Assembly: GCA_945957375.1 (NCBI GenBank)
Contig: CAMFKX010000017.1
Location: forward strand, 1 to 36,113
Reading direction: 5' to 3'
Length of the DNA: 36,113 nt
Source: an uncultured Roseiarcus sp.
GTDB taxonomy: Bacteria; Pseudomonadota; Alphaproteobacteria; Rhizobiales; Beijerinckiaceae
Positions 22,597-34,859 of this stretch are shown here, in pieces. The position numbers were made by a program, and so were the translations under genes. Positions within the stretch are counted from its first letter, which is position 1, and every line of letters starts with the position of its first letter. A model generated the notes under the pieces. It searched no databases. It had not been told where the DNA came from and saw nothing but the letters and a program-made list of their open reading frames with translations.

Positions 22597-23595
22597 CTAC
22601 TCGGCGACGCGCAGCAGCTGCTTGCCCTCGTTGCGGCCTTCGAACAGCCGCCGCAGCGTCGCGGGCGCGTTCTCCAGGCCATGCTGGACGTCGACCTTGT
22701 TCTTGAGCTTGCCCGACTGCACCCAGCCCGCAAGCGCGACGATCGCCTCGCCGGCGCGCGGCATGTAGTCGAGCACGATGAAGCCCTCCATCCGCCCGCG
22801 CTGGACGACCAGGTTGAGGTAGTTCTTCGGCCCCGGCGGCGGCTCGGTCGCGTTGTAGTTCGCGATCCCGCCGCACAGCACGATCCGCCCCCGCATCGCG
22901 AGGCGGGCGAGCGCCGCATCGAGAATTTCCCCGCCGACGTTGTCGAAGAAGACGTCGATTCCCTTGGGGCACAGGGCCTTCAGGCGCGCCGGCACGTCCT
23001 CCGCCTTGTAGTCGATCGCCGCGTCGAAGCCGGCTTCGTCGGTCAGCCAGCGGCATTTCTCGGTCCCGCCGGCGATGCCGATCACCCGGCATCCCTTGAT
23101 CTTGGCGATCTGACCGACCAGCGAGCCGGTCGCGCCGGCCGCGCCGGAAACCACGACGGTCTCGCCGGCGACCGGTCGGCCGACGTCGAGCAAGCCGAAA
23201 TAGGCCGTGACGCCGTTCATCCCGAGCGCGCTCATCGCCAGTTCGAGCGGCGCTCCCGGCGGAAGCTTGGTGAGCTGGCCCTTGGCGTTGACCACCATAT
23301 AATCCTGCCAGCCGGTCAAGCCGGACACGATGTCGCCGACCGCGAAGTCGGGATTGTTCGAGGCGACGACTCGGCCGGCGCCGATCGACCGGACCACCTC
23401 GCCGATCTTCACCGCCGGCAGATAGGTGTCCATGGCGATCCAGCCCCGCTGCGTCGGATCGCAAGAGAGCATGATGTTTTGCACCAGCGCCTCGCCTGCG
23501 CTGAGCGCCGGGACCTCGGTTTCGACGAACTGGAAATCGCTGTCCTGGATCGTCCCCTGCGGACGGCGGGCGAGCAGCCATTGGCGGTTCTTCAT
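22597..23595 (-). CDS. NADP-dependent MDR-superfamily oxidoreductase, prostaglandin reductase / leukotriene B4 dehydrogenase / alkenal reductase family
   Basis: NRQWLLARRPQGTIQDSDFQFVE, MLSCDPTQRGWI, ALGMNGVTAYFGLLDVGRPVAGETVVVSGAAGATGSLVGQIAKIKGCRVIGIAGG, FFDNVGGEILDAAL; RBS upstream of 23595. Confidence 0.9.
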   Translation of the reverse strand: MKNRQWLLARRPQGTIQDSDFQFVETEVPALSAGEALVQNIMLSCDPTQRGWIAMDTYLPAVKIGEVVRSIGAGRVVASNNPDFAVGDIVSGLTGWQDYMVVNAKGQLTKLPPGAPLELAMSALGMNGVTAYFGLLDVGRPVAGETVVVSGAAGATGSLVGQIAKIKGCRVIGIAGGTEKCRWLTDEAGFDAAIDYKAEDVPARLKALCPKGIDVFFDNVGGEILDAALARLAMRGRIVLCGGIANYNATEPPPGPKNYLNLVVQRGRMEGFIVLDYMPRAGEAIVALAGWVQSGKLKNKVDVQHGLENAPATLRRLFEGRNEGKQLLRVAE

Positions 23596-23660
23596 GTCGT
23601 TCCTCCCAAGCATTGCGCCGTCTTCCTAACACGGCGCGCGCTTGGCCGCGCGCTTGCGGT

Positions 23661-24776
23661 TTACTCGCCCCATTCCGAGACGTTGCGGTTGTCGTTGTCG
23701 GGAATCGGCGGCGGCAGGCCGAACAGCCGGTAGGACAGCAGCCGGGCCTTGCGGGCGATTTCGCTGTGCGCCCGCAGGTAGTTGAGGGAATTGTAGTCGT
23801 AGATCGAGCTCGCCGGCAGCACGCCGAGCGTCTTCGGCATGTTGTTGACGCTGAAGGTGGTGCGCAGGCTCTCCTTCCAGTCCAGCGTCCGGTCGATGTC
23901 GATGACCGCCAGATCGCGCCACGGGCATAGGCGCTCGTCCCAGACGATCATGTTGTTGAACACCTCGGGATCGTCGTCGTCCTGCGCCTGCCGCGTCTGG
24001 ATCTGCATCCGGTACTTCGCGCCTTCGCGGGCGACCCGGTCCTGGTACTCGTACTTGAGGAAATTCCTGCCGCGCGTCTCGTGGGGAAGCACGCGCTGAT
24101 TGCACTGGTCCCACGCGCTCGGATCGCGCTCGAGGCCGGTCTCGGGTTCGTCGTCGAAGGGCAGCACGCGGTATTTCGCGTAGCGCTTGATGCCGTCGTC
24201 GCCGATGAACAGGAACGGGGTCTTGCAGTAATAGCGGACGTTGTGGAACGAGGTGACGTGCCGACGGCCGGCGTCTTCCGAGCCTTTCAGGCCGTCAGGG
24301 TAGCGGTAGTAGTAGTCCGGGTATTCGACGCCCCATTTCTCCTGCCGGGACTTGGCGAACTTCAGGAAGCTGACCGCGGACCAGAACAGGCTCTGCACGC
24401 CGCTGTTCATCTCGATGTCGAACGGGCTGCGGAGGTGGTCGTCGGAAAACTTGATCGACAGGCTGCGGATGCAGTTCATCGCGTCGTCGAGGAAGGTCGC
24501 CGACGCGTGGCGGATGCGGCAGGGATAGACCTTGCCGGCGGCGAAGAACGGATGCGCGGGGAACTGCGGGTCGTCGACGATGCGAATCGCGCCGCTGCCC
24601 GCGATTCCGTTGTTGTGGCTCATGCGCTGCCGCTTCGGCAGGCAGATGAACAGCACCAGCATCAGGGCGAACAGCTTGGCGTAGAGCCAGAGCTGAGCCT
24701 TGTCGAAGGCCCGGCCGAGCCAGAGCCCGACGAGGTCGGCGAAGGAGAGGGATTCCGTCTTCATGGGCGGGGCCAT
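23661..24776 (-). CDS. Catalase-related heme protein, allene oxide synthase / hydroperoxide-metabolising type
   Basis: Distal-His context CRIRHASATFLDDAMNCIRSLSIKFSDD, Asn context SPFDIEMNSGVQSLFW, proximal Tyr RLLSY (RxxxY, catalase superfamily) near the C-terminus; lacks the full VVHAKG motif of true catalases; start codon directly abuts the lipoxygenase stop (TGAATG). Confidence 0.78.
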   Translation of the reverse strand: MAPPMKTESLSFADLVGLWLGRAFDKAQLWLYAKLFALMLVLFICLPKRQRMSHNNGIAGSGAIRIVDDPQFPAHPFFAAGKVYPCRIRHASATFLDDAMNCIRSLSIKFSDDHLRSPFDIEMNSGVQSLFWSAVSFLKFAKSRQEKWGVEYPDYYYRYPDGLKGSEDAGRRHVTSFHNVRYYCKTPFLFIGDDGIKRYAKYRVLPFDDEPETGLERDPSAWDQCNQRVLPHETRGRNFLKYEYQDRVAREGAKYRMQIQTRQAQDDDDPEVFNNMIVWDERLCPWRDLAVIDIDRTLDWKESLRTTFSVNNMPKTLGVLPASSIYDYNSLNYLRAHSEIARKARLLSYRLFGLPPPIPDNDNRNVSEWGE

Positions 24777-26984
24777 TCAGATGTTGGTCCGGGACTCGAT
24801 CGAGTCGATGTCGACGCCGAGCGCCCTGAACGCCTCGCGCTTCTCCTCAAGCAGGCGGATGAGCAGCGGATTGACGTCGCCTTCCTCGTTGCGGGTGATG
24901 AAGCCGTATTCGGTGCGCGACAGGAAGTTGGTGAAGAACAGCATCTCGGTGCTGCGGGTGAGGTCGGGCGCGATGGCGTCGTCGCTCTCCGGGCCCATGA
25001 CGCCCGACGGGGCGTCGCCGAAGCGCAGGCCGCCGCAGCTGTAGCGCACCTCGCCGAGGTCGTCGTACTGGTGCTCGTTGATCCAGGTGTGCATGTAGGT
25101 GGCCTGCATGATGATGTAGCGGCAGGCGTCCTTGAGGTTGCGCCAGTCGCGCTCGCCGGCTTCGTCCCAGGTGCGCGCGGCGGTGATGCGCGAGACCGCC
25201 TTGAGTTCGCCGTCGACCGTCTCGCGCGGGAGATCGGGATCGAACGCGTATTGCCGCGCGTAGTGCTTCAGCCGTTCGGCCGCGAGCTCGCGATAGCGCG
25301 GGTCGGGCGGCGGGGCGTCGCGAGCGGCGGTGACGAACACCGGCACGCTGTGCGTGACGAGGTCGTCGGCGAAGCGATGGATCTCGCCCCAGTGCGCCTT
25401 GATGCCCGCCTCGTGCTCGGCGAAGAACGCGTCGACATAGGCGCCGAGCACGTCCCAGAACAGGGTCTCGGCCTTGGCGCAGCTGTGCGCTGCGCTGATC
25501 GGCGTCATCGGTCGCCAGCCGCGCCAGTCCTGCACGCCGAGGATGTCGCGCGTGCGCTGCAGTAAGCCCCGGTAGGTGAGCGCCGTCGCGGTCGGGATGT
25601 AACCCCGGATCAGTCCCGAGTCGGCGGTGTGGTCGATCAGCGACACTTCCTTCAGATGCGGCAACAGCAGCCCTGCCACCGGATTGAGGCGCAGGTTGCG
25701 GTAGGCGGCGACAGCGTATTGCTCCGCGTTGAGATGCGTGCCGGAGAAATGCTCCTCGACCTCGGTGCAGAAGGCGCCCGCCACGCGCGCAACGCGCTTG
25801 GCTTGCAGCCAGGCCTCCGGGTCGGCGGCGGTGAACGCGCGGCAGTAAAACGGATCGTCATCGCCGCGGCTGAGGCGCCCGGTCAGGCGGATCTCGACCG
25901 GAAGGGGCAGGCCGTCGTCCTTCAGCCGATAGAGGATCGCGACGTCCGGCAGGGCGTAGACATCGTTGATCTCATACCAGCACACGCCGAAGTAGCGCAT
26001 CCAGAAGTGGCCGGGCCGCGTCTCGTCCGGGACGAAGCAGCCGCGGTTCATGCCGTTCATCATGCGCTCGCCGAACCAGTCGTCGCCGCGCGTGTATCCC
26101 GGGAGGCGGCGCTCGATGCAGCGCGTGAGATTTATGGGATAGTCGGCCTCGATCTCTTCGATCGTCAGCGTGCCGGGGAGGAGGTCGATCTGCTCGAGAT
26201 GTTTGGTCTTGGTGATCTCGATCGGCGTGGCCTGCTCGATCAGCGCGTCGTTGCGGCCCTGCGAATAGATTTCCGGCGTGCCGGCCTGCTCGTCCACGAC
26301 GGCGCGCGGCGTCGTCGCGGCGGGTCGGTAAAGCCAGTAATCGAGCGCGATGGTGCGCAGATTGTAGTCCATGCCGATCAGATCGGACTTGGCAACCGGG
26401 ACGGCGCGAAACAGGTCGAAATGAAAGTGCGGCGCGCCGTCGCGAAAATAGGCGCGCGTCGTCTTCTGGATCTCGAGGTTCAGCGAGCGGATCGACAGCG
26501 CGCGCGCGGCGCGTAACGGAAAGGGCAGGGCGAAGCATCCGTCGGCGTCGGTGCGGCCCTCGGCGATCTTGCGCCAGGCGAGCCAGTAGGTGCGGCCCCA
26601 GAACTCGAGGTGCATGTTGTGAATCGGCGGCCCGTAGCCGCGCTCGGCGGCGAACACGAGCCGCCCGACGAGACGCGAGTCGCGATGGCCCTCCGGAAGC
26701 GCCGGCGACCGCGGAAACAGCTCGTCGAGCAACCGATTCCATCCGTTGCGCAGGCGGCGGAACTGCTCGAACAGCCACTCGATCGTGATCGTGAACGGGC
26801 TGTCGATGATCTTCGACTTGCCGACCTGCATATAGTTGACGCCGCGCAAGCGGGGCCGGAAGAACGTATTCCCCTTCGACGTGTAGCGAATGCGGGTTTC
26901 GCGCAGGCACTCCGCGATGATGGCGCGGGTCGGGTCGGGATCGGCGGCGGCGCGCGGCGTGGTCAGGGGCGGGGGCGCGTTCAT
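24777..26984 (-). CDS. Lipoxygenase-family non-heme iron dioxygenase
   Basis: EEHFSGTHLNAEQYAVAAYRNLRLNPVAGLLLPHLKEVSLID (HxxxxH; LOX-like), ATYMHTWIN (HxxxN) and C-terminal isoleucine (ESRTNI-stop). Starts at ATG 26984 with an ATGA overlap with the upstream gene; the 1194-aa ORF of the track is an N-terminal over-extension. Confidence 0.88.
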   Translation of the reverse strand: MNAPPPLTTPRAAADPDPTRAIIAECLRETRIRYTSKGNTFFRPRLRGVNYMQVGKSKIIDSPFTITIEWLFEQFRRLRNGWNRLLDELFPRSPALPEGHRDSRLVGRLVFAAERGYGPPIHNMHLEFWGRTYWLAWRKIAEGRTDADGCFALPFPLRAARALSIRSLNLEIQKTTRAYFRDGAPHFHFDLFRAVPVAKSDLIGMDYNLRTIALDYWLYRPAATTPRAVVDEQAGTPEIYSQGRNDALIEQATPIEITKTKHLEQIDLLPGTLTIEEIEADYPINLTRCIERRLPGYTRGDDWFGERMMNGMNRGCFVPDETRPGHFWMRYFGVCWYEINDVYALPDVAILYRLKDDGLPLPVEIRLTGRLSRGDDDPFYCRAFTAADPEAWLQAKRVARVAGAFCTEVEEHFSGTHLNAEQYAVAAYRNLRLNPVAGLLLPHLKEVSLIDHTADSGLIRGYIPTATALTYRGLLQRTRDILGVQDWRGWRPMTPISAAHSCAKAETLFWDVLGAYVDAFFAEHEAGIKAHWGEIHRFADDLVTHSVPVFVTAARDAPPPDPRYRELAAERLKHYARQYAFDPDLPRETVDGELKAVSRITAARTWDEAGERDWRNLKDACRYIIMQATYMHTWINEHQYDDLGEVRYSCGGLRFGDAPSGVMGPESDDAIAPDLTRSTEMLFFTNFLSRTEYGFITRNEEGDVNPLLIRLLEEKREAFRALGVDIDSIESRTNI

Positions 26985-29900
26985 GCCGACACCGCCGGTT
27001 CTGCGGCGGTCGCTTGCGTCCTCCCCACGGCCGGTCGGGACGGATCGAGGCGGTCGACGAAGAACATCGCGAGCTTGCCTTTTCCTTTGGCCTCCAGTTC
27101 GCCGCGCGGCGTGAACGCGAAGCGGCCGCCGAGGTAGTCGTGCGTGGCCTGCGAAATGTTCACCTGACCGGCCGCGCCGGACGATTCCATTCGCGCGGCG
27201 GTGTTCACCGTGTCGCCCCAGACGTCGAACTGGAACTTCTTCGTGCCGACGATTCCGGCGACGACCGGCCCGGTATGCACGCCGATACGCATGCCGAAAT
27301 GTGAACCGCCGCGTCGCCTGCGCTCGGCGATGAAGTCGCGCATCTCGAGCGCGGCCTCGACGACGTCGTCGGGATGGGTCGAGTTCGGCACCGGCAGGCC
27401 GCCGACCGCCATGTAGGCGTCGCCGATCGTCTTGATGCGCTCGACGCCGTGTCGGGCGACGATGGCGTCGAAGGCGTTGAAGCACTCGTCGAGCTCCTGC
27501 ACCAGATCGGTCGGGGACAGGGTGGCGGCGAGCTCGGTGAAGCCCTCGAAGTCGGTGAACAGCACGGTCACGCGCTCGTAGGATCGCGCCTCGGCGCGGC
27601 CGGTCCGCTTCAGTTCGTCGGCGGTCTCGGCCGGCAGGATATTGTGCAAGAGGTCGTCGCTGCGCCGCTTCTCGCGGTCGAGTTCGGCGGTGCGCTCGGC
27701 GACCTTCTGCTCGAGCTTGTCGTACAGCATCGCGTTGTCGATCGAGACGGCGATCTGGCCGGAGAGCAGGGTGAGCAGGTCGACCCGTTCGCGCGTGAAC
27801 GCGCCGGGCGCGAGGTTGTTCTCGAGATAGAGCACGCCGACGCTGCGCCCGCGATTCAGGATCGGGACGCAGAGGATCGAGACCGGCCGCTTCTTCAGGA
27901 CATAGGGCTGGGTGCGGCAGCGTTCGTCCGTGGTCGCGTCGGACACGACCAGCGGCTCGCGCGTCCGGTGGACGAACTGGGCGAGCGGAACCGAGAGGTC
28001 GTCGCTGGTCAGCGCGGGAAGGTCCTGCAGCACCTCGATCGTCGCGCCGGCGTCCTCGCCGCGGGCCTGGACCGCAAGCCCCTCCGGCCCGTCGAGCAGG
28101 ATGAAGCCGCGCTGCGCGCCGGCGTTCTCGATCACGATCTCCATCAGCACCGACAGCAGCCGGGCCGGGACGACCTCGCGCGAAATGATCGTCGAGGCCT
28201 TGAGCACGGTGCTGATGTCGAGCACGGCCCCGTTGAGCAGCGACGTGCCGAGATCCAGCGCGCCTTCGCCGGAGGCGAGCGCAGAGGCGTTTTCCCCCTT
28301 CTGCGTGATGTACTTGGGGAAGTGATCCAGGAGGTCGCGGTGCTTGGCCACCGCGCCCCATTCGCGATAGGCGTTATAGGCCGCCTTGAGGTGGAACTCG
28401 GCGAGCACGGGGCGGTCGGTCGCGGCGTAGAAGCGGCCCGCCAGTTCGAAGGCGAGCGCCTCCTCCTGGAGGAACTCGTTCCGTGTCGCCCCGGTGATGG
28501 CGCGGTCGTAGGCGAGCCGCGCGGCGTTGCCGGCGCCGGTCACGCGCGCGTATTCGGCAAGGCAAAGATCGAGCTTGTGGCGGTGGTTGGCCGGCGAGAA
28601 CCGCGCCCAATAGCGCAGCCGCATCATGTCGACCCGCGCGCCGAGCAGCAGCCGCCATCGCTCGGGCCCGGTCTTGTGTTCGGCGAGGGCGATCTTGGCG
28701 AGCGCGTCGTAGAAGCGCAGGTTCGGAATTTCGAACTTGCCGAGAACGGCGTCGAGCAGCTTGCAGGCGGCGGCGGCGTGCTCCTTGGCTTCGGCGAAGC
28801 GGCGGAAATGGTAGCCGAGCACGAGCTTGTTGAAGTGGATGAAGAACGCGCCGGTCTTGTCGCCGCGCTCGCGATTCTGCGCGATCATCCGGTCTTCGTC
28901 GTAGGCCTCGCCGACCAGCCGGACCGGGTCGGCGCTGCGGCCCATCAGGTTGAGCATGCTCTGCCGGAAGACTTCGTTGTAGTTGTAGTTCGTCTCCTGC
29001 TTGAACTGCCGGTAAAGCTCGCTGTAGGCGCGGGTCTCCTCCTCCACCCGCTCGAGCGGCCGGCCGCACAGGAACGAGTGGATGCAGTAGATGTTGGTGT
29101 TGACGCAGGCGAACTCGATCAGGCCGGTTTCGAGGCCGATCTGGAAGGAGTCGCGCAGCGGACCGAGGCTGCCGCGCACGTGCTCGGTCCAGTGGAAGAT
29201 CAGGCCGTAAGGCGGGATGTAGATCTGCGCCTTCCACTCCTTCGCGTTCAGCTTGTCGAGCAGCTCGAGCGCGAGGCGGCCGTACATGGCGCCCTTGCGC
29301 ATCGATCCGAGCACGCCGCACATGATGACCCCGTACGAGCCGTAGGCGAAGCACGAGACCGCGTTGTTGCCGTAGCGCAGCGACAGCCGCACCATGCGGA
29401 AAACGATCAGCGGCAGCAGGTTCGGCCGCCCCCAGTAGACCGAGGAGGTGATGTGCGCGATCGTGCGCATCGCCGCGATCTTGCGTGGGTCGGCCATCTC
29501 CGGCAGCGACATCAGGTCCGCTTCGGAATAGCGGCTGAGCGCGATCTGCGTGGCGACCAGATCGGCGAGGACGTGCGCCATGTTCGGCCGCGCGGGAAAC
29601 TGCTCGCCGAGCTGCGCCAGCACCTCGAGCCCGGTCTCGATGGCGTCGTGGAACCGGTTCTCGGCCTTCAGCGCGAGGATGCGCACCTCGTAGGGCTTCA
29701 CCTTGTCGAGGATGTCGTCGAGCTCCGCGAGCAAGGTCCGGACGCGGGCATCGGTGCGCTGGAACTCGCCGCTGAGATAGGCCGCCTCCGCCGATTCGGT
29801 GTAGAGCTCGCGCATCAGCGCCGGCGCCTCTTTCCACGGCTCGGCGCCGAGCTCGACCAGCGCGATCCCGGTCTCGAAATATTGCAGCGCCGTCGGAAAC

Positions 29901-32119
29901 GCCGAGTTCAGCTTGGCGCGCGCGCCGGCTTTCAGGTTCAGCGCCGCAAGCTCGATCTGCTCGGGCCGTGCGTGGATCGCCGAGCGGCCGCTGTTGAGCT
30001 GGTTGGCGATGTCGAAGATGCGCGCTTCGAGCCCGGCCTCCGGCGTATTGGCGAGCAGGAGACGGCCGATCTCGAGATGCACGGTCGTGCGCTCGGCCTC
30101 GGGAATGAGGGAATAGACCGCCTGCTGCACCCGGTCGTGGCTGAACTTGTAGTTCGTGGCGTCGAGCTGGACGAGGAGCCCCGCGCCGAGCGCGATCTTG
30201 AGAAGCGCCGCCTCCTCCAGCGGGTCGCAGCGACGCAGCACCGACAGCGTGTCGAGGTCGAACCGGCTGCCGATGCACGAGGCGAGCCGCAAGGTCTCCT
30301 GCACCGCCGGGTCGAGGCGGCGCACCTTGGCCGCCATCAGGTCGACGACGTTCTCGGCGATGTTCCTCTGCCCGATCAGCTTCGCGTCCCACCGCCAGCG
30401 CCCGGCGTCGGGGTCGAAGGCGAGGAGACGTTCCGCCGCGAGCGACTTCAGGAACTCGGTGGCGAAGAAGGCGTTGCCGTGGGTCTTCTCCTGGGTCAGC
30501 GCCGCGAGCGGCGCGACGTCCTCGCGCGCGGCGCCGAGGGCGCCGGCGAGCATCGCGCCGAGATCGTCCTCGGTGAGGTTGCCGATGCGGATCAGCTCCG
30601 GCGTCAGACCGGTTTCGCGGATCGCCTCGACGGCGCGGATGAACGGATGCGCCGCGCTGACCTCGTTCTCGCGATAGGCGCACACCAGCATCAGGTGGCC
30701 GCATTCGGGATCGGTCAGCAGCACCTGCAACAGATCGAGCGAAGCGGAATCGGCCCATTGGAGGTCGTCGATGAAGATGACCACCGGATGGGCCGGCGCG
30801 CACAGGGCGCGGACGAACTTGCGGAACAGGTAGTTGAACCGGTTTCGGGATTCTGAGCCGCCGATCTCCGGGATCGGCGGCTGCGGGCCGATGATCAGTT
30901 CGAGGTTCGGCAGCATGTTGGTGATCACGCGCCCCTCGTCGCCGAGCGCGGCGCGCAGGTCGTCCCGCAGCGCGCCGAGCCGCTCTTCGCGCTCGGTCAG
31001 GAAGTCGTCGACCAGGTCCTTGAAGGCCTCGACGAAGGCGACGTAGGGCGTGGCGCGCTGGAACTGGTCGAACTTGCCGGAGCTGAAATAGCCGCGCCGC
31101 GCGGTGATCGGCTTATGCACTTCGTTGACCAGCGAGGTCTTGCCGGTGCCCGAATAGCCGCCGACCAGGACGAGCAAACGGGCGCCGTCCGCGCAGCGGT
31201 TGAAGGCGTCGATGAGCGCGGCGACCTCCGGCTCGCGCCCGTACATGCGGGTCGGCAGGCGAAAGATGGTCGACTGGTCTCTTTCGCCGAGCGGGAACAG
31301 CGGCGCGTCGGGCCCGCTCTCCAGGAAATCCCGGAGACAGCGCTCGAGGTCGTGACGCAGGCCGTCGGCCGACTGGTAGCGGTCGTCGGGGTTCTTCGCG
31401 AGCAGCTTGTCGAACACGGCCGAGAGCGAGGCGGGGACCCTCGGGTTGAGCTGGCGCAGGGGGGTGGGAATCTGGGCGAGGTGCGCGTGCACCATGCCCA
31501 TGGCGTCGGCGGCCTGGAAGGGCAGGGCGCCGGCGAGCACCTCGTAGAAGGTCGCGCCCAACGCGTAGAGGTCGGCGCGGAAGTCGACCGCGCAGTTCAT
31601 CCGGCCGGTCTGCTCCGGCGAGCAATAGGCGAGCGTCGCCTCGATCAACTCGGGGTTGCTGACATAGGGCTGCTTGAGGTCGAAGATCGTCGCGATGCCG
31701 AAGTCGATCAGCCGGACGCGGCGCTCCTGAAGGTCGACCAGGATGTTGTAGGGGCTGACGTCCTTGTGGATGATGTGGTGGCGGTGAATCTCCGAAAGCG
31801 CCCGCGCGGTCGCGATGGCGATGTGCAGCACGTCGACGATGTCGGCGGATTTCTGGCGGAAGGCGGTCTTGAGGTCTTCGCCGTCCACCCACTCCATCTC
31901 GATGACGTGGCGATTGTTCTCGCGGGTCTTGCGCAGCGCCGCCCGGATCTCCGGCAGCGCGAGCCCGCTGATGATGTCGAACTCGTTGTGAAACTGCGCG
32001 ATGTCGACCGGGGTCGGAAACTCGTAGTTGAGCACCTTGACGGCCGTGACTGCCCCCGAAGCGTCCTGGCGGCGAAAGACCTTCGATTTCTTGCTCTCGT
32101 AGATCAGGCGGTCAGCCAT
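26981..32119 (-). CDS. Multidomain signalling protein: kinase-like, AAA ATPase, helical/TPR-like, GAF and class III adenylate/guanylate cyclase domains (1712 aa)
   Basis: Kinase-like HKDVSPYNILVD..LIDFGIAT; Walker A GGYSGTGKTS and Walker B VVIFIDDLQWAD; GAF RPVSILCVPILNRGRSVGVLYLEN; cyclase VLFTDFEGFTELA..RIKTIGDAYMAVGG..FDVWGDTVNTAARMES. Confidence 0.92.
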   Translation of the reverse strand: MADRLIYESKKSKVFRRQDASGAVTAVKVLNYEFPTPVDIAQFHNEFDIISGLALPEIRAALRKTRENNRHVIEMEWVDGEDLKTAFRQKSADIVDVLHIAIATARALSEIHRHHIIHKDVSPYNILVDLQERRVRLIDFGIATIFDLKQPYVSNPELIEATLAYCSPEQTGRMNCAVDFRADLYALGATFYEVLAGALPFQAADAMGMVHAHLAQIPTPLRQLNPRVPASLSAVFDKLLAKNPDDRYQSADGLRHDLERCLRDFLESGPDAPLFPLGERDQSTIFRLPTRMYGREPEVAALIDAFNRCADGARLLVLVGGYSGTGKTSLVNEVHKPITARRGYFSSGKFDQFQRATPYVAFVEAFKDLVDDFLTEREERLGALRDDLRAALGDEGRVITNMLPNLELIIGPQPPIPEIGGSESRNRFNYLFRKFVRALCAPAHPVVIFIDDLQWADSASLDLLQVLLTDPECGHLMLVCAYRENEVSAAHPFIRAVEAIRETGLTPELIRIGNLTEDDLGAMLAGALGAAREDVAPLAALTQEKTHGNAFFATEFLKSLAAERLLAFDPDAGRWRWDAKLIGQRNIAENVVDLMAAKVRRLDPAVQETLRLASCIGSRFDLDTLSVLRRCDPLEEAALLKIALGAGLLVQLDATNYKFSHDRVQQAVYSLIPEAERTTVHLEIGRLLLANTPEAGLEARIFDIANQLNSGRSAIHARPEQIELAALNLKAGARAKLNSAFPTALQYFETGIALVELGAEPWKEAPALMRELYTESAEAAYLSGEFQRTDARVRTLLAELDDILDKVKPYEVRILALKAENRFHDAIETGLEVLAQLGEQFPARPNMAHVLADLVATQIALSRYSEADLMSLPEMADPRKIAAMRTIAHITSSVYWGRPNLLPLIVFRMVRLSLRYGNNAVSCFAYGSYGVIMCGVLGSMRKGAMYGRLALELLDKLNAKEWKAQIYIPPYGLIFHWTEHVRGSLGPLRDSFQIGLETGLIEFACVNTNIYCIHSFLCGRPLERVEEETRAYSELYRQFKQETNYNYNEVFRQSMLNLMGRSADPVRLVGEAYDEDRMIAQNRERGDKTGAFFIHFNKLVLGYHFRRFAEAKEHAAAACKLLDAVLGKFEIPNLRFYDALAKIALAEHKTGPERWRLLLGARVDMMRLRYWARFSPANHRHKLDLCLAEYARVTGAGNAARLAYDRAITGATRNEFLQEEALAFELAGRFYAATDRPVLAEFHLKAAYNAYREWGAVAKHRDLLDHFPKYITQKGENASALASGEGALDLGTSLLNGAVLDISTVLKASTIISREVVPARLLSVLMEIVIENAGAQRGFILLDGPEGLAVQARGEDAGATIEVLQDLPALTSDDLSVPLAQFVHRTREPLVVSDATTDERCRTQPYVLKKRPVSILCVPILNRGRSVGVLYLENNLAPGAFTRERVDLLTLLSGQIAVSIDNAMLYDKLEQKVAERTAELDREKRRSDDLLHNILPAETADELKRTGRAEARSYERVTVLFTDFEGFTELAATLSPTDLVQELDECFNAFDAIVARHGVERIKTIGDAYMAVGGLPVPNSTHPDDVVEAALEMRDFIAERRRRGGSHFGMRIGVHTGPVVAGIVGTKKFQFDVWGDTVNTAARMESSGAAGQVNISQATHDYLGGRFAFTPRGELEAKGKGKLAMFFVDRLDPSRPAVGRTQATAAEPAVSA

Positions 32120-32795
32120 CTCGGCTCGCGCCTCCCGACAATCCCGGAGCCCGCAAGGCGCACGTCACGTCGGGTTTCCGGTTCGACCGGCGCGCTTCGA
32201 GCCACATGAAATATCGTTCCCGGAAAGTCTGCTCGTCTCAACCAGAACTGGATCGCCCCGGACCAGCAGGGCCGTGGCGAGTTTAATCACCCGCAATCGT
32301 CGCGCCAGATGTTTTTCGCACGCCGCCCCGGTTCAAACCTGAGGGACCTCCGCTTTGCCGGCCGTCGGCGCGAACGCGCGTTGCGGCGATCCGGAGATGT
32401 CTTGTCCATCCGGGCAGGAGGCCGCGCGTCCGATCGCGCTCGCCGTCCGCACCGAATCCCGGTGCGAGAGCGCGTCCGGAATCTTGCGATGGCGACGCAT
32501 TCTCGCGCGGATTTCCTCGGACGAATACGAATGGGCGATCGCGCCGCAAAGCCGGGCGGAGCGCCTTGCGTCGCCAGCCGGAACGGCGGCGCCGACAGCC
32601 TGTTGCACAACGTGTCCGGCGGCGTCTGTGCGCCCGGCCCTGTCAACCTTTGACGCCGGCGGCGCGATCATCCGAAGCAACGCTGAAGAATAGGACGATC
32701 TTGAACTGCGCCGGCTTTCTGGCTGGCTGGACAGGGACTATTCGACGACGTAAACATTGTAAATAGCGTTGATTCCGGGGGGTTGCCCAGGCCGC

Positions 32796-34859
32796 ATGAA
32801 TATTGACGTTGGCGAGACCTTGTCGCGTGCGGCGGCGCACTGGAATGCAGGCCAAGCCGACGCAGCAGAAATGGCGTGTCGCCAAGTATTGGCGGTTTGG
32901 CCGGGGCAGGCCGACGCCTCGCATTTGCTTGGCCTGATCGCGCATGCGTTCGGAAATGCTGAGCTCGCCGTGTTGCACATGCGGACGTCCTGCGAGGCGC
33001 CGCGGTCCCCGGCACTCTATTTCAGCAATTTCGCCGAGGTTTGTCGCCAGAGCGGGCTGCTGGCGGAGGGGGAACGCGCCGCGCGCCGCGCGGTCGCGCT
33101 CGACCCGCGACAAGCGGGCGGTTGGAACAACCTCGGCATTCTGCTTCAGGAGCTCGGCCGTTTCGAGGACAGCCTGCAGGCTCTCTTGCGCGCCCTGGCG
33201 CTCGCGCCGGACGATCCGCAGACCCACAACAATCTCGGCAACACCTACCGGCGCCTCGGCCGGCTCGCGGAGGCCGAGAGGCTTTGGACGCGCGCCATTG
33301 AACTCGCGCCGAACTATCCGGAGCCCTACAGCAATCTCGCGCATCTTCTGACCGAGCAGGCGGAGCTCGACAGGGCGGCGGCGCTCGCCCGCCGCGCGAT
33401 CGAGCTCAACCCGCAGTTTGCCGACGCCTACCTCAATCTCGCCGGCGTCGAGATTGCGCGTGACCGTCTCGCCGAGGCGCTGCATTGGCTGCGGGCGCTG
33501 CTGGCGTTCGCGCCCGACCTTCCGAAGGCGTTGGCGGCGCTCGCCCTCGTCCTCAAGGATCTCGACGAACTCGACGAGGCGCTCCGCGTCGCGCGGCGCG
33601 CCGTCGCGCTCGGTCCGGAGAATGCGGAAGCGCACGACGCGCTGGGTCGCGTTCTCGAGGAGGTCGGCGACTTTGACGTTGCGCTCGCCGCCTTCGAGCG
33701 CGCCGCCTCGCTGCCCGGCGCGAACCGGGAAAACGCGTTGGTCCACCGAGCCGTGCTGCACGTCTCGTTCGGCCGCAAGGACCAGGCGGAAGCCGCGTTC
33801 GACGCCGTTCTCGCCGAGTTTCCCGGCTCGGTCGCTGCGCTGGTCGGCCGCGCCGACCTGAGGCCCGGATCGCCAAGGGAACTCGACATCGCGCGCATGG
33901 TCGCGATGCTGGAAGGGCGTTCCGGCGTCGCGCTTTCCCATCATGACCGGATGGCGCTCAGTTTCGCAGCCGGCGACGCGTTCCTCGATCTGGGCGAATC
34001 GGAGTTGGCCTTCCGCCACCTCGACGCCGGCAACCGCATGAAGCGGGCGCTGATCGACTACGATCCGGACGCGACGGCGGCGTGGCTTCGCAGCATCGCC
34101 GACGCCTTCAGCGCCGAGCGGCTAGCGCTCCGGTCGGGCCGAGGCGCCGCCTCCTCGACGCCGGTGTTCGTCGTCGGCATGCCGCGCTCGGGCACCACGC
34201 TGCTGGAGCAGATCCTGGCCTCCCATCCCGACGTTCGCGGCGCGGGAGAACTGCGACACGTTCAGCGGCTCGCCGACGACGTCGCGGGATATCCGCATAT
34301 GGACCTCGACCCGGACCGCCTGGTCGCGATGGGGCAGGCCTATCTCGAGCGCATCGCGCGTCCCGCCGAAGGTCGACGGCATGTCGTCGACAAGATGCCG
34401 TCGAATCTGCTGCATCTGGGCTTGATCCGGATGATCCTGCCTGACGCGCGGATCATCCACTGCCGCCGCGACCCGGCGGATACCTGCCTGTCTTGCTATG
34501 CCAAGCTGTTCGCGTCGCAGCAGCTGTTCGCCTACGATCTCGCGGAGCTTGGCCGCTTTCACAAGGCCTATCAGGCGCTGATGGCGCATTGGCGCGCCGC
34601 CTTGCCGGATTCCCATTACATCGAGGTCGACTACGAGTCCGTCGTCGCGGATCTCGCCGGCGAGACGCGTCGCCTGCTCAGCTTCCTCGGCTTACCGTGG
34701 AACGAGGCTTGCCTCGACTTTCGCCACACCCAAAGGCCGGTCCTGACCGCCAGCGTCAATCAGGTGCGCGAGCCGCTCTACGCGACCGCGGTCGGCCGCT
34801 GGCGAAAACATGCCGCGCATCTCGGGCCGCTGCTCGATGCGCTGGACGCCGCCGCATGA
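32796..34859 (+). CDS. TPR-repeat sulfotransferase
   Basis: N-terminal TPR array (WNNLGILLQELGRFEDSLQALLRALALAPDDPQTHNNLGN); PAPS-binding PVFVVGMPRSGTTLLEQIL and CRRDPADTCLSCYAKLF. Confidence 0.88.
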   Translation: MNIDVGETLSRAAAHWNAGQADAAEMACRQVLAVWPGQADASHLLGLIAHAFGNAELAVLHMRTSCEAPRSPALYFSNFAEVCRQSGLLAEGERAARRAVALDPRQAGGWNNLGILLQELGRFEDSLQALLRALALAPDDPQTHNNLGNTYRRLGRLAEAERLWTRAIELAPNYPEPYSNLAHLLTEQAELDRAAALARRAIELNPQFADAYLNLAGVEIARDRLAEALHWLRALLAFAPDLPKALAALALVLKDLDELDEALRVARRAVALGPENAEAHDALGRVLEEVGDFDVALAAFERAASLPGANRENALVHRAVLHVSFGRKDQAEAAFDAVLAEFPGSVAALVGRADLRPGSPRELDIARMVAMLEGRSGVALSHHDRMALSFAAGDAFLDLGESELAFRHLDAGNRMKRALIDYDPDATAAWLRSIADAFSAERLALRSGRGAASSTPVFVVGMPRSGTTLLEQILASHPDVRGAGELRHVQRLADDVAGYPHMDLDPDRLVAMGQAYLERIARPAEGRRHVVDKMPSNLLHLGLIRMILPDARIIHCRRDPADTCLSCYAKLFASQQLFAYDLAELGRFHKAYQALMAHWRAALPDSHYIEVDYESVVADLAGETRRLLSFLGLPWNEACLDFRHTQRPVLTASVNQVREPLYATAVGRWRKHAAHLGPLLDALDAAA

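Follow-up and report, generated by a model that had tools for sequence, protein, structure and literature searches.

The window analysed here is a stretch of 36,113 nucleotides from an uncultured Roseiarcus sp. (contig CAMFKX010000017.1 of assembly GCA_945957375.1), in which a lipoxygenase (LOX) gene lies on the minus strand between the gene of a very large sensor protein and that of a catalase-related protein resembling allene oxide synthase (AOS). The ATG of the LOX gene shares four bases with the stop codon of the upstream sensor gene, as seen by inspection of the junction, and the AOS-like gene begins at the base that immediately follows the LOX stop. The genes and the features within them are as follows:

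22597..23613, minus strand: prostaglandin-reductase/alkenal-reductase-like MDR enzyme, 47 bases downstream, a native neighbour outside the conserved unit
23661..24776, minus strand: catalase-related AOS/HPL-like protein, 371 aa (1u5u, E 4e-53)
23730..23744, minus strand: R345-LLS-Y349, displaced candidate proximal haem motif RxxxY (Arg in 13/13 members, Tyr in 10/13)
24615..24620, minus strand: distal Ser53-His54 of the AOS-like protein (13/13 members), opposite coral Thr66-His67
24636..24692, minus strand: hydrophobic segment, AOS-like residues 29–47, likely membrane anchor (mean hydropathy 2.17)
24777..26984, minus strand: lipoxygenase of the CspLOX1 type, 735 aa (PF00305 above cut-off; 5ek8, E 4e-100; model Z 41.6)
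24780..24782, minus strand: C-terminal Ile735, predicted carboxylate ligand (invariant in 15/15 rows)
25077..25091, minus strand: HTWIN (residues 632–636), with predicted metal ligands His632 and Asn636 (invariant in 15/15 rows)
25623..25625, minus strand: Ala454, the Coffa-Brash stereochemistry site, Gly401 in CspLOX1 (Ala in 14/15, Ser in 1/15)
25734..25751, minus strand: HFSGTH (residues 412–417), with predicted metal ligands His412 and His417 (invariant in 15/15 rows)
26343..26678, minus strand: LOX residues 103–214, N-terminal beta domain, transthyretin-like on weak sequence evidence (Pfam, profile, model)
26718..26798, minus strand: LOX residues 63–89, long amphipathic helix near the N-terminus that may contact the membrane (helix in the model; hydrophobic moment 0.68 over residues 71–88)
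26981..32119, minus strand: sensor of 1712 aa with protein kinase, AAA_16, GAF and class III cyclase domains (Pfam)
27056..27589, minus strand: class III nucleotide cyclase domain, sensor residues 1511–1688 (PF00211, E 8e-58)

The LOX reading frame runs uninterrupted from 26984 to 24777, its product ends in RTNI, and no second match was found in its own genome. The Pfam family Lipoxygenase (PF00305) was matched just above its cut-off (24.9 against 23.6 bits), and the best relative retrieved by phmmer was the 9R-lipoxygenase CspLOX1 of Cyanothece PCC 8801 (PDB 5ek8), with an E of 4.2e-100 over residues 105–735 and about 35% identity. His412, His417, His632, Asn636 and Ile735 are unchanged in all 15 aligned LOX rows, the window counted. 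Given the Pfam score, the 5ek8 match and these five invariant ligands, the assignment cannot be put down to chance. An AlphaFold model built from 15 sequences (pLDDT 81.3, pTM 0.83) superposed on 5ek8 over model residues 59–735 (Z 41.6, rmsd 2.8, 606 aligned), and the remaining LOX structures among the matches listed gave Z values of 19.9 to 25.1. The sequence-only reading had recognised a lipoxygenase with its full ligand set and had proposed this comparison of a model with LOX structures; the identity is borne out by the 5ek8 homology, the conservation across 15 rows and the fold match, and the positions it gave for HFSGTH and HTWIN, with Ile as the last residue, were correct. By its sequence and predicted structure the window ORF is thus a genuine bacterial lipoxygenase, another member of a known LOX type that shares with CspLOX1 homology over its whole length, the N-terminal beta domain, the helical extension and the ligands. 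CspLOX1 is compared here as a protein, the unit with a sensor and an AOS-like gene being the feature of the window.

CspLOX1 reportedly binds membranes by its helical extension. In the window model the helix of residues 63–89 stands ahead of the beta domain, which is made of eight strands and a short helix. The same reading had described the N-terminal domain as non-PLAT and transthyretin-like. A profile search with this domain found residues 54–190 of 5ek8 (E 4e-18), with no other LOX matched and six unrelated chains at E of at least 0.58. Pfam gave TTR-52 in 10 of the 15 members (weakly, best E 9.9e-4) and Transthyretin in two; with 5ek8 added, TTR-52 was found in 11/16 N-terminal domains, mostly weakly and above the cut-off in 5ek8 alone (residues 55–190, 25.4 against 24.9 bits, with no match to PLAT), and PLAT in none of the 16. 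The window domain itself matched Transthyretin alone, below the cut-off (E 0.05), and not TTR-52. A single-sequence search with the 5ek8 domain returned C2 chains and a TTR-52 chain on equal terms, at an insignificant E of about 0.5, and the PLAT-bearing LOX chains among the structural matches listed mostly aligned from about model residue 178, so that they barely cover the domain and give no evidence for a differing fold. By sequence the description is weakly supported, its non-PLAT part by the lack of Pfam PLAT matches and its transthyretin-like part mostly by weak matches in relatives; we consider the domain probably transthyretin-like in preference to PLAT. This type of domain is not unique to the window protein, as CspLOX1 has the same one. 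We also observe that the CspLOX1 domain, which PMC10177866 treats as PLAT, exceeds the Pfam TTR-52 cut-off instead.

The active-site clamp, carried over by hand through sequence alignment from Table 1 of PMC5437038, falls on Phe413, Ile450, Ala454, Leu458, Phe684 and Leu688 of the window LOX. According to that paper, R-specific enzymes have Gly and S-specific ones Ala at the site equivalent to Ala454, and the Gly401Ala change in CspLOX1 leads to a bis-allylic product. Applied to Ala454, the rule as given there predicts that the window LOX would form mainly S or bis-allylic products, unlike the 9R product of CspLOX1. The genome has five matches to fatty-acid desaturases, which is simply compatible with a source of polyunsaturated fatty acids (PUFA).

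The protein encoded next to the LOX is a homologue of coral AOS, matching the AOS part of the fusion protein AOS-LOX (E 4e-53; profile E 1e-74). Its Ser53, His54 and Asn124 are invariant in the 13 members and stand opposite coral Thr66, His67 and Asn137, residues whose roles are taken from PMC5617202. The distal Thr of the coral enzyme is replaced by Ser in 13/13 members, a conservative change, and for this reason we file the protein only as AOS/HPL-like. A hydrophobic segment precedes the distal His in every member (hydropathy 1.5 to 2.5, against 0.34 in the coral row). The proximal side is less clear. None of the 13 members has Tyr at the position that aligns without gaps to coral Tyr353 (Glu in eight, Asp in two, and Ala, Gly and His in one each), Arg335 and Arg345 are invariant (13/13), and Tyr349 is missing in three. 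The lack of Tyr at the expected site and the absence of Tyr349 from 3/13 members make haem binding uncertain. It could even be supposed that the protein is a haem-less, non-enzymatic partner that binds lipids or membranes, the LOX hydroperoxides being the end product, as the missing proximal Tyr and the profile alignment of the family to coral AOS, which reaches only to residue 350, immediately ahead of the proximal ligand, would suggest; we regard this as improbable, since Ser53, His54, Asn124, Arg335 and Arg345 are invariant in 13/13 members, which would fit selection on a distal pocket. The AOS-like protein is a putative haem binder.

The sensor belongs among multidomain kinase-AAA-GAF proteins; its domains follow one another as in these, its output at the C-terminus varies in the same way (cyclase or histidine kinase), and it differs in being tied to an oxylipin gene pair. 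Its nearest NCBIfam match was TOMM_kin_cyc, far below the cut-off of that model. PADLOC, among the 25 matches listed for it, gave nearly all kinase models and one Pycsar cyclase, and left the LOX and the AOS-like protein without a match. We compared 14 sensors, namely that of the window, those of 12 complete loci and that of L027, taking into account that only the 3' portion of the gene is present in L002 and L004. Ten have a cyclase output, recognised by Pfam in the window, L003, L027, L028 and L034 and by motif alignment alone in L002, L004, L029, L032 and L033, and the catalytic motifs are retained in all ten by motif alignment. The other four (L026, L030, L031 and L042) have a histidine-kinase output, with the kinase-AAA-GAF part retained. 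The Asp of the kinase HxD motif is kept in 10 of the 11 sensors having that region, in an alignment made without L042; in the sensor at L033:11191-16236 HNC replaces HxD, and this protein may be a pseudokinase. L026 and L042 have an extra gene between sensor and LOX, with receiver and histidine-kinase domains in L042 and a counterpart similar by eye in L026.

In 12 of the 14 other LOX loci (L002, L003, L004, L026, L028-L034 and L042) the sensor, LOX and AOS-like genes form a same-strand group; the LOX of L034, matched in two pieces owing to an insertion, is counted once. The order is sensor-LOX-AOS in the window and in L002, L004, L026, L028, L032, L033, L034 and L042, sensor-AOS-LOX in L003 and L029, and LOX-AOS-sensor in L030 and L031. 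L027, the one Bacteroidota locus that lacks the AOS-like gene, has the LOX with a divergent sensor, and L005 has neither sensor nor AOS-like gene. An ORF of 472 aa lies between LOX and sensor in L027 (L027:11215-12633); it is LOX-like, with a Pfam LOX match under the cut-off (E 0.018). When the window and 13 other loci were compared, L042 being left out, the three genes alone, ORFs overlying them aside, recurred in at least three of the 14. Every starred pair that occurs in both the LOX tree and the AOS tree is recovered alike in the two. Among 395 Bacteroidota genomes the AOS-like gene occurs in six, all of them among the seven that are LOX-positive; the chance figure for this linkage (6/6) is 1.4e-12, which ignores the kinship of the genomes and hence is no true probability. 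Taken by itself, the window could be read as an isolated, horizontally acquired LOX that happens to stand beside unrelated genes, because three genes on one strand could be accidental and the reductase next to them is a native gene of the genus. The linkage refutes this and leaves it with hardly any probability, since the trio is together in 12/14 other loci and the AOS-like gene occurs without LOX in none of 395 genomes. The LOX, the AOS-like enzyme and the giant sensor form a rare conserved unit. Our literature search, made at the level of titles and abstract openings with most subscription papers out of reach, is a weak negative; within that scope we found no report of a unit of LOX, AOS and kinase-cyclase, nor of a LOX with cyclic-nucleotide-binding domains.

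The reductase, by its likeness to prostaglandin reductases, was an attractive candidate for a fourth pathway gene. It was rejected as a member of the conserved unit, given that a genome of the same genus (G002), in which the LOX was not found, has a 77% identical copy and that it lies near the LOX in only one of the 14 other loci (L028), on the opposite strand. On the other side, a TPR-sulfotransferase gene (32769-34859, plus strand) is divergent from the sensor gene and is not a recurring neighbour.

The distribution of the LOX is very patchy. It was found in one of 60 genomes of the relatives' set and in one of 398 genomes drawn from Pseudomonadota (a draw overlapping the former set), in both cases only in its own genome. 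A scan of named genomes, its reach limited by its peptide patterns, gave at least four relatives, in two Bacteroidota MAGs, in Neolewinella marina MKG-38 and in one Gemmatimonadota MAG. Within the Bacteroidota draw 7/395 genomes have it, counting the centre genome G450, and it was found in 5/120 genomes of the family of G450 and in 2/10 and 1/92 of two other families; among 298 Gemmatimonadota genomes only the one already known has it. In the LOX tree the window LOX falls among Bacteroidota rows (group support 83/91), with no resolved sister. This likeness to Bacteroidota, together with the absence from neighbouring genomes, suggests from sequence comparison that the LOX was acquired by horizontal transfer. 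The genes flanking the unit have high DNA identity to same-genus genomes (glycerol kinase 85%, reductase 82%), which argues that the contig belongs with its genome, and the best plasmid matches of the glycerol kinase are alphaproteobacterial, suggesting a host of that class. The LOX had no match among PLSDB plasmids and was confirmed on no viral contig, the AOS-like protein had only plasmid matches of 25–29% (five Sinorhizobium records), and there is no tRNA within the window.

The Gemmatimonadota MAG presents a different arrangement (L005:6224-11857). A single ORF encodes two cyclic-nucleotide-binding domains followed by a LOX. Its divergent neighbour is matched best in the PDB, at E 1.8e-26, by CYP74A, an allene oxide synthase of plants, and the next gene codes for an alpha/beta hydrolase that weakly resembles LCAT and group XV phospholipase A2 (E 3e-4 for the latter). 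This one locus of one MAG hints at a LOX under cyclic-nucleotide control, and a second assembly along the same lines may have taken place in Gemmatimonadota, its parts being the LOX with fused cyclic-nucleotide-binding domains, the CYP74-like P450 and the hydrolase of lipase type.

Pairs of LOX and a hydroperoxide-converting enzyme are known elsewhere. The coral Plexaura homomalla has an AOS-LOX fusion (1u5u/3dy5) and Acaryochloris, according to PMC11719350 and PMC10813956, a catalase-LOX fusion, and both share with the window a LOX paired with a relative of catalase-related, hydroperoxide-converting haem proteins. The window has separate adjacent genes and a different LOX subtype, and its AOS-like protein differs from coral AOS by the Ser in place of Thr66, the membrane segment and a proximal Tyr away from the expected place. 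Plant LOX and CYP74 allene oxide synthase follow the same chemical logic, also seen in the CYP74-like P450 adjoining the LOX of L005, whereas the window partner is catalase-related and not a P450. The unit is a variant on this known pairing, and what is new are the three genes, the swapping of outputs and the parallel fusion.

The reading that we prefer, with a probability of roughly two in three, is that the window encodes a non-haem iron LOX acting in a two-step oxylipin pathway, as one transferable unit under the control of a sensor. By homology, the LOX would oxidise PUFA to a hydroperoxide, probably reaching its substrate at the membrane by means of the N-terminal helix and the beta domain, and the membrane-anchored, catalase-related partner would turn the hydroperoxide into an allene oxide, an aldehyde or an epoxyalcohol. 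As for control, linkage suggests that the kinase-AAA-GAF sensor detects a cue or a product and that its output, cyclase or histidine kinase, couples the pathway to cyclic-nucleotide or phospho-signalling. The signalling role of the unit is drawn solely from linkage. A more ambitious version is tentative, and we would give it clearly less than even odds: that this is a self-contained system for oxylipin signalling, carried on a transferable unit, whose giant cyclic-nucleotide or phospho-signalling sensor directly controls or reads out the LOX and catalase-related pathway to yield jasmonate- or prostanoid-like signals, perhaps reassembled in Gemmatimonadota.

PUFA synthesis is seldom found in bacteria. 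It might be, then, that the LOX oxidises PUFA obtained from eukaryotic hosts or from prey, that the hydroperoxides are removed by the catalase-like partner and that the sensor works as a switch for environmental conditions, without any oxylipin signal being made. Such a scavenging or detoxifying role, with which a catalase-related partner and a rare and patchy distribution would also agree, seems unlikely to us. The distal Ser is not the catalase residue at that position, which we take to be Val, and it resembles the Thr-His of hydroperoxide-converting relatives, a pair on which a 2016 study by Mashhadi reportedly bears; moreover, a big dedicated sensor would be costly for detoxification.

Most of the meaning of the locus lies in the partner genes, which the sequence-only reading had not included. 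According to the review PMC11011848, experimental data on the role of bacterial LOX cover few species, and an involvement in multicellularity has yet to be confirmed. With a unit present in the cultured and named Neolewinella marina, the function of a bacterial LOX becomes testable by removal of the gene, and the loci described here provide a LOX that seems to be governed by cyclic nucleotides, as well as a catalase-related family with a displaced candidate haem ligand. Overall, the finding suggests that some bacteria produce oxidised fatty acids resembling hormones, with signalling dedicated to their control.
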